DNA of 64,000 nt from Halomonas sp. TA22 (lineage in GTDB: Bacteria > Pseudomonadota > Gammaproteobacteria > Pseudomonadales > Halomonadaceae): contig NZ_CP053108.1 in the NCBI RefSeq assembly GCF_013009075.1, forward strand, positions 1,860,001 through 1,924,000, given 5' to 3'. The position numbers and the translations under genes are program-made. Positions within the stretch are counted from its first letter, which is position 1. Each line of letters opens with the position of its first letter. The notes beneath the pieces are model-generated. The model saw only the letters and a program-made list of their open reading frames with translations, was not told the DNA's origin and did no database searches. Positions 7,894 to 52,343 of the stretch are shown piece after piece.

Positions 7894-8628
7894 TCAGGAA
7901 GCCGCCTCTTTGTCGGGTGAGGAGAGTGAAGCACAGGAGTTGCGCTGGGCAGCCAGGATCTGCTCAGCCAGCATCAGATCCTCGGGATGGGTGATCTTGA
8001 GGTTGTCGCGCCGGCCAGCGATCAGCCGCGGCGCATGGCCCAGCGCCTCGACGGCCGAGGCCTCGTCGGTGACCGTCACGCCAAGCCGGCGGGCCTCGTC
8101 CAGCGCATTGACCAGCAGGCGAAAGCGAAACCCTTGCGGTGTCAGGGCATGCCAGAGGCTCTCGCGCGATTCAGTCACGGCCACTCGCTTGGTCGCATCG
8201 GCACGCTTCATGGTGTCGGCCACCGGCGCGGCCAGCAGAGCACCCACCGGGTCGTCGACCAGCGCCTCGAGCAGCCGCGCCAGATCGTTTAGATCGACAC
8301 AGGGGCGGGCCACGTCATGCACCAGCACCAGGTCATCATCGGCGGCCTGTCCCTCAAGGGAGGCGAGCGCCTGGCGCACCGAGTCGGCGCGCTGCTCGCC
8401 GCCGGCAACTCGCTGCCAGTCGGCGAAGGGCACCCAGGTGGGATCGAACCAGTGATCGTCCTCGGCCAGGCACAGCCGCAGCTGGGCCTCGGGAAACGCC
8501 TGATGAAGGCGCGTCAGGGTGAGTTCGAGCACGCAGCGCTCGCCCAATGGCAAATACTGCTTGGGGCGCTGCGCCCCCATGCGACTGCCCTTTCCCGCCG
8601 CTGGCACGATCAGCCACAGGCGGCTCAT
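7894..8628 (-). CDS. ispD: 2-C-methyl-D-erythritol 4-phosphate cytidylyltransferase
   Basis: A 244-aa CTP-dependent transferase in the MEP pathway. Motifs: VPAAGKGSRMG (CTP phosphate binding), PKQYLPLGERCVLE, VAGGEQRADSVRQAL, VLVHDVARPCV (metal and substrate Asp) and the C-terminal RRDNLKITHPEDLMLAEQIL. It overlaps ftsB by 4 bp upstream and abuts ispF downstream, the standard ftsB-ispD-ispF arrangement. Confidence 0.97.
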   Translation of the reverse strand: MSRLWLIVPAAGKGSRMGAQRPKQYLPLGERCVLELTLTRLHQAFPEAQLRLCLAEDDHWFDPTWVPFADWQRVAGGEQRADSVRQALASLEGQAADDDLVLVHDVARPCVDLNDLARLLEALVDDPVGALLAAPVADTMKRADATKRVAVTESRESLWHALTPQGFRFRLLVNALDEARRLGVTVTDEASAVEALGHAPRLIAGRRDNLKITHPEDLMLAEQILAAQRNSCASLSSPDKEAAS

Positions 8629-8966
8629 GGCGCCAACTCCGCCGGTGCGGGTATCGGCAAGGCGCGCTGTTCGATGATCGCGGCCCCGGCCACCACGCCG
8701 GGCACCCAGTAGAACTGCTCGTCGGCACGCACCATGCCGATGTCGCTGCGGCCACGCTCCTCGATGGCGTCAAGCCCCGTCTTGAGGTCGACGACCTCGG
8801 CAGCCAGGCGTTCGTTGCGTGCCCGCAGCGGTGAGTTCTGCTCTTCGAGCACGTCGGCACGGGCGCGAATCTGGGCGAGCTCCTCGAGTCCGCCCTCGCC
8901 AAACCACAGGCGGTACTGCAGCAGTGCGATCAAGACGGTCAAGACGATGGCCAGCCACTTGAGCAT
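8625..8966 (-). CDS. ftsB: Cell division protein FtsB
   Basis: A 113-aa bitopic membrane protein of the FtsQLB divisome complex. One N-terminal membrane span (WLAIVLTVLIALLQYRLWF) is followed directly by a heptad-rich coiled coil (LEELAQIRARADVLEEQNSP to VDLKTGLDAIEERGR), then a short periplasmic tail with the GMVRADEQFYW motif usual for FtsB. I start at the ATG at 8966 rather than an adjoining TTG at 8969, since AGGA sits upstream. It heads the run of overlapping genes down to rpoS. Confidence 0.95.
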   Translation of the reverse strand: MLKWLAIVLTVLIALLQYRLWFGEGGLEELAQIRARADVLEEQNSPLRARNERLAAEVVDLKTGLDAIEERGRSDIGMVRADEQFYWVPGVVAGAAIIEQRALPIPAPAELAP

Positions 8967-11250: not shown

Positions 11251-11389
11251 GATGGCCTCCTTTATCCATGAACCTTACTGAGTGGCGGCACTCTCCTATC
11301 GTCAGGATAGACAGCGTGTGCCCAGCCCTTGGAAATATTCCTGTGAAGAGAATAAGCCTATCGAAAACATGATGAGGCACCCAAGTTTT

Positions 11390-11403
11390 TGCTAACGTTA
11401 CCA
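11390..11403. promoter_or_regulatory. LacI-family operator upstream of edd
   Basis: TGCTAACGTTACCA is a near-perfect inverted repeat with the central CG typical of LacI/GntR-type operators, 34 bp before the edd start and inside the gap/edd divergent gap. It resembles gluconate-repressor sites (TGTTA-CG-TAACA type). No LacI regulator is encoded in the window. Confidence 0.55.
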
Positions 11404-11436
11404 AACTGCCACTCACCATAGCTAGCGAGGTCTTCC

Positions 11437-13322
<1,886 letters not shown>

Positions 13323-47030: not shown

Positions 47031-47342
47031 ATGTACAAACTCGCCTTCTTCGTCCCCGTGGAGGATGCCGATAGCGTCAAGCAGGCGATCTTCGACACCG
47101 GCGCCGGACGCATCGGCAACTACGAGGCCTGCTGCTTCCAGACACGCGGCACCGGGCAGTTCAGAGCGCTCGAGGGAGCCGATCCGCATCTAGGCGACGT
47201 CGGCACGCTCGAGCGCGTCGAGGAACTCAAGGTGGAGCTGGTGTGCCGGGACTCGCTGATCCACGCCGCCGTGGCGGCACTCAAGCTCGCTCACCCCTAT
47301 GAGGAGCCGGCCTTTGATGTATGGCGGCTCGAGGAGATATAG
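47031..47342 (+). CDS. NIF3/YqfO C-terminal-like small protein
   Basis: A 103-aa stand-alone version of the insert domain found in NIF3/YqfO proteins (CutA/PII-like ferredoxin fold): YKLAFFVPVEDADSVKQAIF, GAGRIGNYEACCFQTRGTG, GQFRALEGADPHLG and AHPYEEPAFDVW. AGGAG lies 6 nt before the ATG. Function unknown; such proteins are widespread in proteobacteria as single-domain forms. Confidence 0.88.
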   Translation: MYKLAFFVPVEDADSVKQAIFDTGAGRIGNYEACCFQTRGTGQFRALEGADPHLGDVGTLERVEELKVELVCRDSLIHAAVAALKLAHPYEEPAFDVWRLEEI

Positions 47343-47361: not shown

Positions 47362-48417
47362 TCATGAGGCAACGCCATGCTGCTCGGCGAGAGACTGGCG
47401 ATAGCGCGCATAGACGTGCTGGTAGGCGGCGACTCGCCCAGGGTCGGGCTCGACACATGAGCTTTCGTCGAGCTGCACCAAGCGCGCGCAAAGCGACTCC
47501 AGGGTGGTGCCCTGCTCATACTGATGGCACCAGGCTGCTTGTAGGGCAGCCCCCAGGGCGGCAGCATCGGTGATCCTGGGGCAGATCACCTGCGTTGCGG
47601 TGATGTCGGCCACTATCTGGCGCCATATCGGGCTTCGCGCGCCCCACATGCCGCAACGCCCGCTGGAGAAGAGCGCTTGATTCTCGTTGAAGCCGTTTGA
47701 ACTCGCGCCTGGCGGACCGTAATTGCCCATCAGGTCGACATAGAAGCCGATCGCCTCCTGCCACTCGGGAGAGTTGATCTCGGGTTGCCACTCCTCGCCG
47801 AACCAGCGCCCTCCGAAGGTATTCACCAGCGTCGACACGAAGGCCATGTTCTCGCCCCAGCCCGGCTTGCCGCGCAGGCAGATGCCGTAGACGCCATTGG
47901 CGGGATCGTGGATCTGGCTGGCCCACTCGAGCACCTCTTCCCAACTGGGCTGTTCGGACATCTCGATGCCGTGCTGTTCGAACAGGTCCTGGCGGTAGTA
48001 GAGCATCGAGCTCTCGGCATAGAACGGCAGCGCGTGCAGGACGCCGTCATGACTAAGACCATCACGCACCGGGCGCAGCAGGTCATCGACCTCGTACTCC
48101 TCCGGTAGCTCGTCAAGGCCGACCAGCCAACCGCGCTCGGCCCAGATCGGTGCCTCGTAGGTGCCAATGGTCATGACATCGAACTGCCCTCCCCCCGTCG
48201 CGATATCGGTGGTCAGGCGCTGGCGTAGCACGTTCTCCTCAAGCACCACCCAATTGAGGGTGATGCCGGGATGGGTCTGCTCGAATTCGCTGGTCAGGCC
48301 TTGCATGATGACCATGTCGTTATTGTTCACCGTAGCGACAGTGATCTCCTGCGCCTGAGCGGCAGCGGAGACTGCCGCGGCCAGAGTCGCCAGTGGCAAG
48401 GCGTGCGTGAGCTTCAT
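47362..48417 (-). CDS. In-frame chimera: polyol ABC binding protein fused to xylulokinase-type kinase tail
   Basis: 351 codons, open throughout. Residues 1 to about 258 are a sugar-alcohol ABC substrate-binding protein (signal ending AAQAQ, then EITVATVNNNDMVIMQGLTS, VMTIGTYEAPIWAERGWL, LYYRQDLFEQHGIEM). At GMW/GARSP (plus-strand about 47640-47645) the homology changes to the C-terminal FGGY kinase domain: RSPIWRQIVADITATQVICP, TDAAALGAALQAAWC and a normal kinase end. In related operons the order is binding protein, two permeases, ATPase, polyol dehydrogenase, kinase; so one deletion of several kb would join the two. Neither half is complete. The protein is unlikely to bind or phosphorylate sugar. 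Confidence 0.85.
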   Translation of the reverse strand: MKLTHALPLATLAAAVSAAAQAQEITVATVNNNDMVIMQGLTSEFEQTHPGITLNWVVLEENVLRQRLTTDIATGGGQFDVMTIGTYEAPIWAERGWLVGLDELPEEYEVDDLLRPVRDGLSHDGVLHALPFYAESSMLYYRQDLFEQHGIEMSEQPSWEEVLEWASQIHDPANGVYGICLRGKPGWGENMAFVSTLVNTFGGRWFGEEWQPEINSPEWQEAIGFYVDLMGNYGPPGASSNGFNENQALFSSGRCGMWGARSPIWRQIVADITATQVICPRITDAAALGAALQAAWCHQYEQGTTLESLCARLVQLDESSCVEPDPGRVAAYQHVYARYRQSLAEQHGVAS

Positions 48418-48471
48418 GTGGGGCTCCTTGAAGACGCGTGGCGTTGTTGTTGTGTCGTTTAATTATGATGA

Positions 48472-48498
48472 TTTGATCATTGAACGATCAAATGATCG
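48472..48498. promoter_or_regulatory. GATCA-rich operator for the SorC-type regulator
   Basis: TTTGATC-N7-GATCAAA (48472-48492) is a perfect inverted repeat, overlapped by CGATCA-AA-TGATCG (48485-48498), another perfect one. It lies 55-81 bp before the chimera start, in the gap behind the regulator gene. Confidence 0.65.
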
Positions 48499-48547
48499 TA
48501 TGCGGCTTCAAAAAAAGCAAAGCCAAAAGGCTTAGACTTTCCGGTAA

Positions 48548-50416
<1,869 letters not shown>

Positions 50417-51370
50417 TCACTTGGCAGGCGCGGCGCCCGGCGGATCGCCTGCTGCAGCGAGATGCGACTGCTGCCACAGATGAGCGATCAGCTCCTGGAT
50501 GAAGTTACGCACGATCAGCGACGGCCGCCTCCCCGCACGAGTCACCACGCAGAACGGCGAGGCGATGCTGACCCGATCAGGCAGCAATGCCTTGAGCTCA
50601 CCCCGCGCCACCCAGTGATCAGCATAGTAGTTGGGCAGGTTGCCGATGAAGTGGCCGCTGAGAATCAGCAGCGCCTGGGCCTCCATGTTGGAGGCATGGG
50701 CGCCGACCCTAGCGCCGGGAAAGCTGCCGAGTTCCTGCAGATTGGCATAGGGCCGCACCACAAAAGGGTGCTCGACGATCTCCTCCACCGTCACGCCGTT
50801 GCCGTCACGTTCGAACAGCGGGTGCGACGAGGCGCAGTAGATGCCGTGACGCTCGGTATAGATCCTTCGATGCTGCAGCCCCGCCATCTGCGTGGTTTCC
50901 GGCAGGATGCCAAGCTGCAACTCGCCGCTGGCGATCTCGCCGATCAGCTGGTCCGGACTGCCCACGGTGATATTGAGACGAGCCTTGGGATTCTTGCGCA
51001 GGAACTCGCCGATCACGCTCTGTAGCGCAAGATCGACATCCATGATGGTGTTGTCGACGATACCGAGCCTCAGGGTTCCGTAGACGGTACTCTTGAGTTC
51101 GCTCATCTCGCTGTCGAAATCATCTACCGAGGCCAACAGCCGCTTGCCTCGCTCGAAGAGGATAATGCCCCGGTCGGTGAGCTCGAATCCCTGCCGCCCC
51201 CGGCGGCAGACGGTGAACCCTACCCGCTCCTCCAGCGCCCGCACATGAAAGCTGACCGCAGACTGGCTCATGTGCAGTGCCGTCTGGGCACCGGCGAAGC
51301 CACGGTGTTCGGCAACTGCCAGAAAGACCCCGAGACTCTTCAGATCGGCAGATGCGAGCTTCATCGGCAT
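50417..51370 (-). CDS. LysR-type regulator of the guanidino/amino-acid cluster
   Basis: 317 aa: HTH ADLKSLGVFLAVAEHRGFAG and MSQSAVSFHVRALEERVG at the N-terminus, then a periplasmic-binding-like effector domain (GTLRLGIVDNTIMD, GELQLGILPETTQ, HPFVVRPYANL). The C-terminal about 12 residues are Ala/Pro-rich. Divergent from the ABC operon at 51513 across a 142-bp AT-rich gap, so it is probably its activator. Confidence 0.92.
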   Translation of the reverse strand: MPMKLASADLKSLGVFLAVAEHRGFAGAQTALHMSQSAVSFHVRALEERVGFTVCRRGRQGFELTDRGIILFERGKRLLASVDDFDSEMSELKSTVYGTLRLGIVDNTIMDVDLALQSVIGEFLRKNPKARLNITVGSPDQLIGEIASGELQLGILPETTQMAGLQHRRIYTERHGIYCASSHPLFERDGNGVTVEEIVEHPFVVRPYANLQELGSFPGARVGAHASNMEAQALLILSGHFIGNLPNYYADHWVARGELKALLPDRVSIASPFCVVTRAGRRPSLIVRNFIQELIAHLWQQSHLAAAGDPPGAAPAK

Positions 51371-51512
51371 GCCCCATGTCAGTGCGTAATTGCAACGTTT
51401 TTTCGGGAGTGAACAGCAAAATATATCAATTTTATTGCAGCATGCCTCCTGCTTAACTCATGACCATGCGGTTCCCACCTGCTGCATCCCATCACAACAA
51501 GAGGGCGTATCC

Positions 51513-52343
51513 ATGAAACGCATGACTTCCATCGCCGCCGGCCTGCTGCTCTGTAGCGGCATCGCAAGCAACGCTCAGGCCGACGACCTGCTCGAGGAGA
51601 TCAAGAGCGAAGGTACCTTCACCGTGGGGACCGAGGCACGTTTCGCGCCTTTCGAGTACATCGAGGATGGCGAGATCATCGGCTATTCGGCCGACATCAT
51701 GGAGCACATCATGGCCGAGCTTGAAGACGTCGAGCTGATCCGCATGGACCTGCCATGGCAGGGCATCCTGCCCGGCCTCGAACGCAGCCGCTTCGATTAC
51801 GTGATCACCTCGGTGACGGCCACGCCCGAACGCATGGAGCGCTATCACTTAAGCGCACCGATTGCCGATGCCACCATGGCGATACTCAAGCGCGCCGGGG
51901 AGGAGAGCATCTCCGCGCCCGAGGATATCGCCGGCAAGGTCGCCGCGGCGCAGTCCGGCTCGGCCCAGCTCGCTGCGCTGGAAGCGCTGGCAGCACAGCT
52001 CGAGGCGGCAGGCACCCCGGTTGCGAACATTCGCACCTACACCGGCGTGGACGAGGCCTACGCCGAGCTCGGCACCGGGCGCGTCGATGTGGTGATCAAC
52101 AGCCTGCCCAACCTGCTGGAGGCCGAGCGCACCCGTCCCGATGTCTTCGAAGTGGTGGGCACCTTTGGCGAACCGGTCTACTTCAGCTGGGCGGGGCGTC
52201 GAGACGCACAGAGCGCAAGCCTCAATGCCTTCATGGACGAGCAGATTCGGCGCCTGAACGAGGATGGCACCCTGGCCGAGCTTCAGGAGAAGTGGTTCGG
52301 TGCGCCCATGGAGCTGCCATTGGAGCTGCCAGACGCGAACTGA
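51513..52343 (+). CDS. Polar amino-acid-type ABC substrate-binding protein
   Basis: About 276 aa from ATG at 51513; signal peptide ends NAQA. Family 3 solute-binding protein: GTFTVGTEARFAPFEYIEDG, IIGYSADIMEHIM, the ligand-binding Arg-containing YVITSVTATPERM, and AAQSGSAQL. The region LPWQGILPGLERSRFD is standard. Ligand is unknown; the neighbours suggest a guanidino or ureido amino acid. First gene of the operon. Confidence 0.93.
   Translation: MKRMTSIAAGLLLCSGIASNAQADDLLEEIKSEGTFTVGTEARFAPFEYIEDGEIIGYSADIMEHIMAELEDVELIRMDLPWQGILPGLERSRFDYVITSVTATPERMERYHLSAPIADATMAILKRAGEESISAPEDIAGKVAAAQSGSAQLAALEALAAQLEAAGTPVANIRTYTGVDEAYAELGTGRVDVVINSLPNLLEAERTRPDVFEVVGTFGEPVYFSWAGRRDAQSASLNAFMDEQIRRLNEDGTLAELQEKWFGAPMELPLELPDAN

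Follow-up and report, generated by a model that had tools for sequence, protein, structure and literature searches.

An in-frame fusion of polyol-binding protein and xylulokinase gene fragments as the probable scar of a recent operon deletion in Halomonas sp. TA22

In the classical laboratory gene fusions made by operon deletion, a deletion joins two genes in frame. Fusion genes born of deletions, in which fragments of distant genes become joined, have been described in a recent preprint, in the main text of which the authors identify no clear novel beneficial function for them (Kaul, Rossine, Brinda, Baym 2026, PMC12803068). A polyol locus of the kind treated here is known from Sinorhizobium meliloti: the smo locus holds smoC, smoEFGK, smoS, mtlK, a putative phosphatase gene and a putative carbohydrate kinase gene, and MtlK oxidises D-arabitol to D-xylulose, dependent on XylB (PMC10433430). 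A limited literature search found nothing in print on an operon of this kind in Halomonas, and the word stem Halomona is absent from the main text of the preprint on deletion-born fusions (PMC12803068). Here we analysed a window, that is, the whole stretch of 64,000 nucleotides at positions 1,860,001 to 1,924,000 of contig NZ_CP053108.1, from Halomonas sp. TA22, a member of the family Halomonadaceae. An earlier note, made from the letters alone, had read one open reading frame (ORF) in the window as a chimera of a polyol ABC binding protein (residues 1-258) and the tail of an FGGY kinase (the last 93 residues). This ORF is an in-frame fusion of fragments of two distinct genes. Very probably, a recent, single and illegitimate deletion within an operon left it behind as a fused relic that is probably non-functional. 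The features of the locus are collected in Table 1.

Table 1. Coordinates of the fused ORF, its parts and its surroundings in the window.
Feature	Coordinates	Strand	Basis
Fused ORF, smoE'-'xylB-type chimera, 351 aa	47362..48417	-	ORF reading, Pfam and NCBIfam
Codons 1-258: N-terminal part of a polyol (sorbitol/mannitol-type) ABC solute-binding protein	47644..48417	-	Pfam, comparison with relatives
Proposed deletion join; parental sites of relatives share 0-1 base at exact register	47643..47644	-	Gene and probe comparison
Codons 259-351 and stop: C-terminal tail of an FGGY (xylulokinase-type) kinase	47362..47643	-	NCBIfam
Regulator-to-ORF intergenic region: conserved promoter/operator-like blocks, AAGGAG ribosome-site-like stretch before ATG	48418..48589	-	
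First operator-like element CGATCATTTGATCG, intact	48485..48498	.	Alignment with relatives
Second operator-like element; distal TGATCA half-site altered relative to relatives	48465..48479	.	Alignment
SorC/DeoR-family regulator, intact, HTH and Pfam Sugar-bind	48590..49540	-	Pfam, NCBIfam, comparison
103-aa gene, right flank of the deletion, convergent	47031..47342	+	Synteny
LysR-type regulator, left flank	50417..51370	-	Pfam, synteny
Further binding-protein gene, after the LysR gene	51390-52343		Left-flank synteny

The ORF is open throughout, and both of its ends fall exactly where the earlier note had placed them. Pfam SBP_bac_1 covers residues 37-260 of the chimera (E 3.6e-45), and Pfam FGGY_C is found at residues 259-296 with E 3.1e-6 and 27.5 bits against a cut-off of 27, the positions present being 159-196 of the 198 in FGGY_C. 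The NCBIfam XylB profile aligns with its positions 400-479 of 481 to residues 259-342 (E 5.2e-16). This match scores 58 bits, far under the whole-protein cut-off of 380, as is expected of a kinase fragment. The family switch lies between codon 258 (TGG, 47644-47646) and codon 259 (GGC, 47641-47643), and gene comparison with both parents agrees with the switch at GMW/GARSP, without a stop, that had been read from the letters. A single family running across the whole ORF had been named beforehand as what would speak against the chimera. It was looked for in Pfam and NCBIfam and ruled out, because the two families meet at 258/259.

Both parts fall short of their parent proteins. Over its 258 residues, the binding-protein part is 85-90% identical to the nearest relatives. 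The chimera leaves the family after residue 258, and this part is thus not a full-length binding protein, which in relatives has about 435 aa. A full-length relative (L113) matches the sorbitol-binding ABC protein 4RYA over residues 21-434 (E 2.7e-171), whereas the chimera departs from it after residue 258. The kinase part consists of the final 93 residues and thus does not contain complete FGGY_N and FGGY_C domains. The start of the binding-protein part resembles a signal peptide, as read by eye from the sequence, and since this start is kept, the putative fusion product is probably exported.

The ancestral state was surveyed in 80 titled loci (the best among 203 encoding a relative), every one of which has a full-length binding protein. 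The regulator lies at most 2.5 kb upstream on the same strand in 78 of them; in the two exceptions it lies about 9.5 kb upstream (L035) or the contig begins 212 bases before the binding-protein gene (L086). The kinase tail is found downstream on the same strand in 64 of the 80 loci, at distances of 6,213 to 9,622 bases measured from codon 258 in the binding-protein gene, and the N-terminal part of the kinase is contiguous with the tail in 64/64. No kinase tail lies within the stretch in the other 16 loci, 15 of whose stretches end about 10 kb past the join site and one 2.8 kb past it. Three of these 16 (L033, L034 and L035; the species are B. endophytica, F. pantelleriensis and H. salipaludis) were extended, and in each the kinase is present downstream, at a distance of 10.65 to 11.4 kb.

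Overall, the gene order in relatives is SorC/DeoR-type regulator, binding protein, permease, permease, ATPase, HAD phosphatase, SDR polyol dehydrogenase, small P-loop kinase, MtlK/DalD-type dehydrogenase and xylulokinase. In Halomonas sp. ML-15 (L036), two permeases, a MalK/UgpC-type ATPase, a HAD phosphatase, an L-iditol 2-dehydrogenase-type SDR and then a small P-loop kinase lie between the two parents; the operon ends with an enzyme of the fructuronate reductase/D-arabinitol 4-dehydrogenase family and the xylulokinase. All of these intervening gene kinds are also present in 11 mapped genomes (15 loci, which hold four same-genome pairs). For this mapping, the kinase in two records that runs off the end of the stretch was completed from duplicate records, and only the later part of the SDR query matched, its leading residues being non-coding with stops. 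The order supposed for the ancestral operon in the earlier note, which begins with the binding protein and ends with the kinase, is thus seen in 64 of the 80 titled loci, and the supposed lost content (permeases, ATPase, dehydrogenase and most of the kinase) lies between the parents in the 15 mapped loci. The intact operon looked for in related genomes is present in family relatives, and none of the 80 loci is fused.

The relatives vary among themselves. In L113, L114, L115, L116 and L119 the join points are 10.65-11.4 kb apart instead of 8.4 kb, and L035 (the same record as L114) carries a PfkB-type ORF, an aldolase-subunit-like ORF and an extra SDR between the SDR and the small kinase, these names having been judged by eye from the translations. 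The binding-protein gene of L119 (G070) is in two overlapping pieces, 11354-12028 and 12010-12657 (query 1-216 and 211-435), as if by a frameshift near codon 211-216. This may be another broken copy or a sequencing error, and the operon is otherwise present. A relative's binding-protein match in G136 (C1:2739691-2740425) contains one in-frame TGA, and in L093 and L099 the regulator gene is in several pieces, frameshift-like, upstream of a full-length binding-protein gene.

The join was compared at the codon level with the best 25 rows for each parent. The binding-protein genes of relatives match the fused ORF through the Cys-Gly-Met-Trp codons (or close variants) and then diverge, and the kinase genes match from the Gly-Ala/Ser-(Lys/Asn/Arg)-Ser-Pro codons (or close variants) onward. 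At the exact join, the parental sites of 12 loci (11 genomes, one pair of loci coming from the same genome) have no base in common upstream and at most one downstream, a pattern that speaks for an illegitimate deletion. The longest word common to both sites within 100 bases of the join is 8-11 bases in these loci; it does not exceed the longest of 30 shuffles in 11 of the 12, and in L119 it exceeds it by one base. In four of the 12 (L114, L119, L071 and L044), a 10-11 base word, TCGGCGGCGG(G), stands at the kinase join site and recurs about 12-23 bases past the binding-protein join site, at which distance it does not explain the exact join. Given this short word near the join, a slipped or two-step event is still conceivable. 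A deletion between repeats, or a misassembly through repeats, was rejected on the 0-1 base common at the exact join. Modelled on near relatives, the deletion would measure 8,442 to 11,445 bases, varying with the relative used as ancestor, and the several-kb deletion proposed earlier thereby receives a size of about 8.4-11.4 kb.

The genes on both sides of the fusion were compared with those of the relatives as well. The regulator, 81-83% identical to the one beside the intact operon in L113 and L115-L119, remains intact, as had been claimed. To its left, an SDR gene, the LysR gene and the further binding-protein gene stand in the same order in L113, L116, L118 and L119. On the other flank, the 103-aa gene gives no match in Pfam or NCBIfam at E 0.001. 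It lies directly after the kinase, convergent as in the window, in L115 and L044, and after the kinase and a transaldolase gene in L036, L037, L071, L092 and L100. Both flanks are seen around one operon in L036/L118. Since both flanks are syntenic with relatives, only the operon interior is missing, apart perhaps from a transaldolase gene. The position of the 103-aa gene differs across the family: it follows the kinase in the window and in several Billgrantia/Halomonas loci, and it precedes the regulator, on the opposite side of the operon, in Vreelandella-type loci (L067, L070, L073 and others, at about 8400-8760).

The genome is a single contig of 3,732,497 bases with 99.9% completeness. We searched 275 family genomes, among which this genome (G000) alone represents its genus, with a probe of 130 bases that spans the join. 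The probe matched in 143 of the 275, and among the matches listed (E to about 5e-7) only that of G000 spans the join, so the switch is not a matter of chance. The listed matches of other genomes end near position 47-72 of the probe or begin near 60-82, and where both halves lie on one contig, e.g., in G048, G012, G034 and G070, they are 10.7-11.5 kb apart. A protein search of 201 family genomes agrees: among the matches listed, those from other genomes stop between residues 220 and 277. The same fusion was thus sought in relatives with the probe (275 genomes) and with the protein (201 genomes), and no relative's match among those listed spans the join.

We also searched G000 for the missing genes. 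The lost stretch as it exists in L036 (8.4 kb) shows mainly ABC ATPase similarity to G000 DNA, the best being 67% identical, together with short pieces. The dehydrogenase has one match, at 41%, beside uxuA and a TRAP permease gene; this match scores best as fructuronate reductase (hexuronate cluster). The kinase finds the genome's own fused tail and one 26% match, which is glycerol kinase. With this hexuronate dehydrogenase and glycerol kinase as the best leads, a move of the operon middle to another place in the genome was rejected within the reach of these searches. Neither the DNA of the lost stretch nor the two protein queries, dehydrogenase and kinase, turned up the lost genes at another site in G000. 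For the permeases, phosphatase, SDR and small kinase, the search was by DNA similarity only, which diverged copies could escape. As far as searched, the polyol pathway appears to be gone from the genome.

In front of the fused ORF, the control region is partly unchanged. The core GATCATTTG of the first operator-like element is found in 73 of 76 intergenic sequences and the full form in 28 of them, the 76 including the window and four duplicate records. In the genome, CGATCATTTGATCG is the only exact copy. Allowing one or two mismatches adds 79 matches, three of which have a single mismatch, and some are one site counted on both strands; the control, the motif read backwards, gives 3 matches. 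Given the 79 near matches, other targets of the regulator are possible. For the second element, the window differs from the relatives at 5 of 42 conserved columns, against a mean of 1.24 over 72 sequences, of which only three depart more. This suggests that the control region has drifted or that it varies between lineages. The claim that the operator remains therefore stands for the first element and does not stand for the second, TGATCA-type one; we infer that both are binding sites of the regulator, and they are to be taken as putative. Upstream of them, at about 48510-48541 (-), there is a conserved block, AAAGTCTAAG...GGCTTTGCTTTTTTT, in the relatives' consensus, which is probably a promoter or an activator site.

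Neither dN/dS nor the near-invariant columns reveal detectable decay in the coding parts. Against 10 relatives, dN/dS of the binding-protein part is 0.06-0.21, and 8 of the 10 values fall below the median among the relatives themselves (0.18). The kinase tail has ten defined values of 0.13-0.27, seven of them under the relatives' median of 0.21. From the 11 relatives supplied, 10, 11, 10, 4 and 4 were used for the five genes, and one kinase-tail dS was undefined. The dS values to relatives are comparable among the two pieces, the regulator and the neighbours (about 0.6-1.4), several being near or above 1 and thus close to saturation. At columns with at least 95% identity, the window departs at 1 of 144 in the binding protein, 0 of 35 in the kinase tail and 0 of 154 in the regulator; the mean departures in the other sequences are 1.05, 0.42 and 1.0, respectively. 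These alignments have 82, 70 and 79 rows, window included, and exclude five duplicate titled loci, loci of 8 kb or less, rows with less than 90% coverage and rows with stops. If the fusion is unconstrained, fewer than about 0.012 neutral substitutions per site have occurred since the deletion (95% Poisson bound from 1 departure in 179), and the terminal-branch dS of the binding-protein part is about 0.53. Such a lack of decay can reflect either a recent event or maintenance of the product. Recency is the simpler reading, since maintenance would need a function, of which no sign was found.

The following course of events would account for these observations. An ancestor of the strain would have carried a SmoEFGK-type polyol operon. 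One illegitimate deletion, with 0-1 base of homology and a length of about 8.4-11.4 kb, would have joined codon 258 in the first gene, that for the binding protein, to a point near codon 404 in the last, the xylulokinase gene, the reading frame being kept by luck, at a chance of 1 in 3. The binding protein would thereby have been shortened by its C-terminal 40% and the xylulokinase by about 80%, and with the stretch between them the two permeases, the ATPase and phosphatase, the two polyol dehydrogenases and the small kinase would have gone. The regulator, its promoter region and the fused ORF would have been left. We infer the singleness of the event, its recency and the lack of function, and by this route the strain would have lost growth on sorbitol, mannitol and D-arabitol. 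Judged from its sequence, the fusion product is most likely a non-functional relic of recent origin.

Such a join could also arise in the computer, if the cell still had the intact operon and 8-11 kb had been dropped from the assembly. The occurrence of the fusion in one genome, the sole representative of its genus, would suit this explanation. Nevertheless, the assembly is a single contig of high completeness, the lost genes are not found elsewhere in it, and 0-1 base at the join with an 8-11 base word within 100 is too short to mislead an assembler, all of which makes such an error very improbable. With one genome representing the genus, a deletion during laboratory culture is conceivable as well. 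It is extremely improbable that the region was lost long ago and that the fused pieces were later imported together. The operon is indeed patchy in the family, where 152 of 201 genomes match at E<=1e-20 and at least two of the 152 (G105 and G184) match only at about 1e-24, like a distant paralog. However, this older loss with lateral replacement sits poorly with the synteny on both flanks, with comparable dS values for the fused pieces, the regulator and the neighbours, and with coding parts in which no decay is seen.

A recent deletion that left a relic has also to be weighed against a deletion that left a working gene, in which the chimera would be expressed from the regulated promoter and selected, e.g., as an exported half binding protein. 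The ORF is intact, with a start, a ribosome-site-like stretch and a signal-peptide-like beginning, and the regulator and the first operator-like element are intact too. Moreover, coding parts without detectable decay are equally expected of a maintained protein. On the other hand, a recent event yields the same picture, the binding protein is short by 40%, the kinase is reduced to its last 93 residues, and the transport and catabolic genes of the operon are gone. No other genome carries the fusion among the matches listed (275 searched), and the preprint's main text points to no clear beneficial function for fusions of this kind (PMC12803068). On balance, we consider it highly unlikely that a functional fusion was selected. 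The same small chance attaches to the idea of a newborn gene already in use, an exported half binding protein under a polyol-responsive regulator and kept by selection; if true, this would count among the early cases of operon loss giving rise to a new gene. The recent deletion with a relic as its product is the reading we prefer, and the fusion is probably a recent loss scar of modest interest.

This locus is a natural example, resolved to the base, of how the loss of a pathway in one step can leave a new ORF under an intact regulator. Automatic annotation may name the chimera an ABC binding protein, and such names are not evidence for the use of sugar alcohols. Given sequences of sister strains, the fusion could help to date and follow a deletion-born fusion.

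The comparison with known systems places both the lost operon and the fusion. Like the smo locus as described, the relatives' operon holds a DeoR-type repressor, a binding protein, two permeases and an ATPase, and the two also share sorbitol dehydrogenase, mannitol dehydrogenase, phosphatase and kinase genes (PMC10433430). The relatives' operon differs in having a xylulokinase gene at its end and a small P-loop kinase gene inside, either of which may correspond to the S. meliloti kinase, and the present strain differs in that almost the whole operon is gone (PMC10433430). Compared with the classical laboratory fusions, the present fusion is natural and is not known to be selected. As in the deletion-born fusions of the preprint, there is one ORF without an evident immediate function and a split ancestral state in relatives, and the narX example given there is likewise built from genes of one operon (PMC12803068). 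Those examples, in the main text, come from many genomes or from an evolving population, whereas the present fusion comes from one genome; unlike them, it joins the first and last genes of one operon (PMC12803068). With fragments of two genes in one ORF, full-length split parents in relatives and the intervening DNA absent as far as searched, the fusion belongs to the deletion-born fusions already described and is a well-resolved further case of them.
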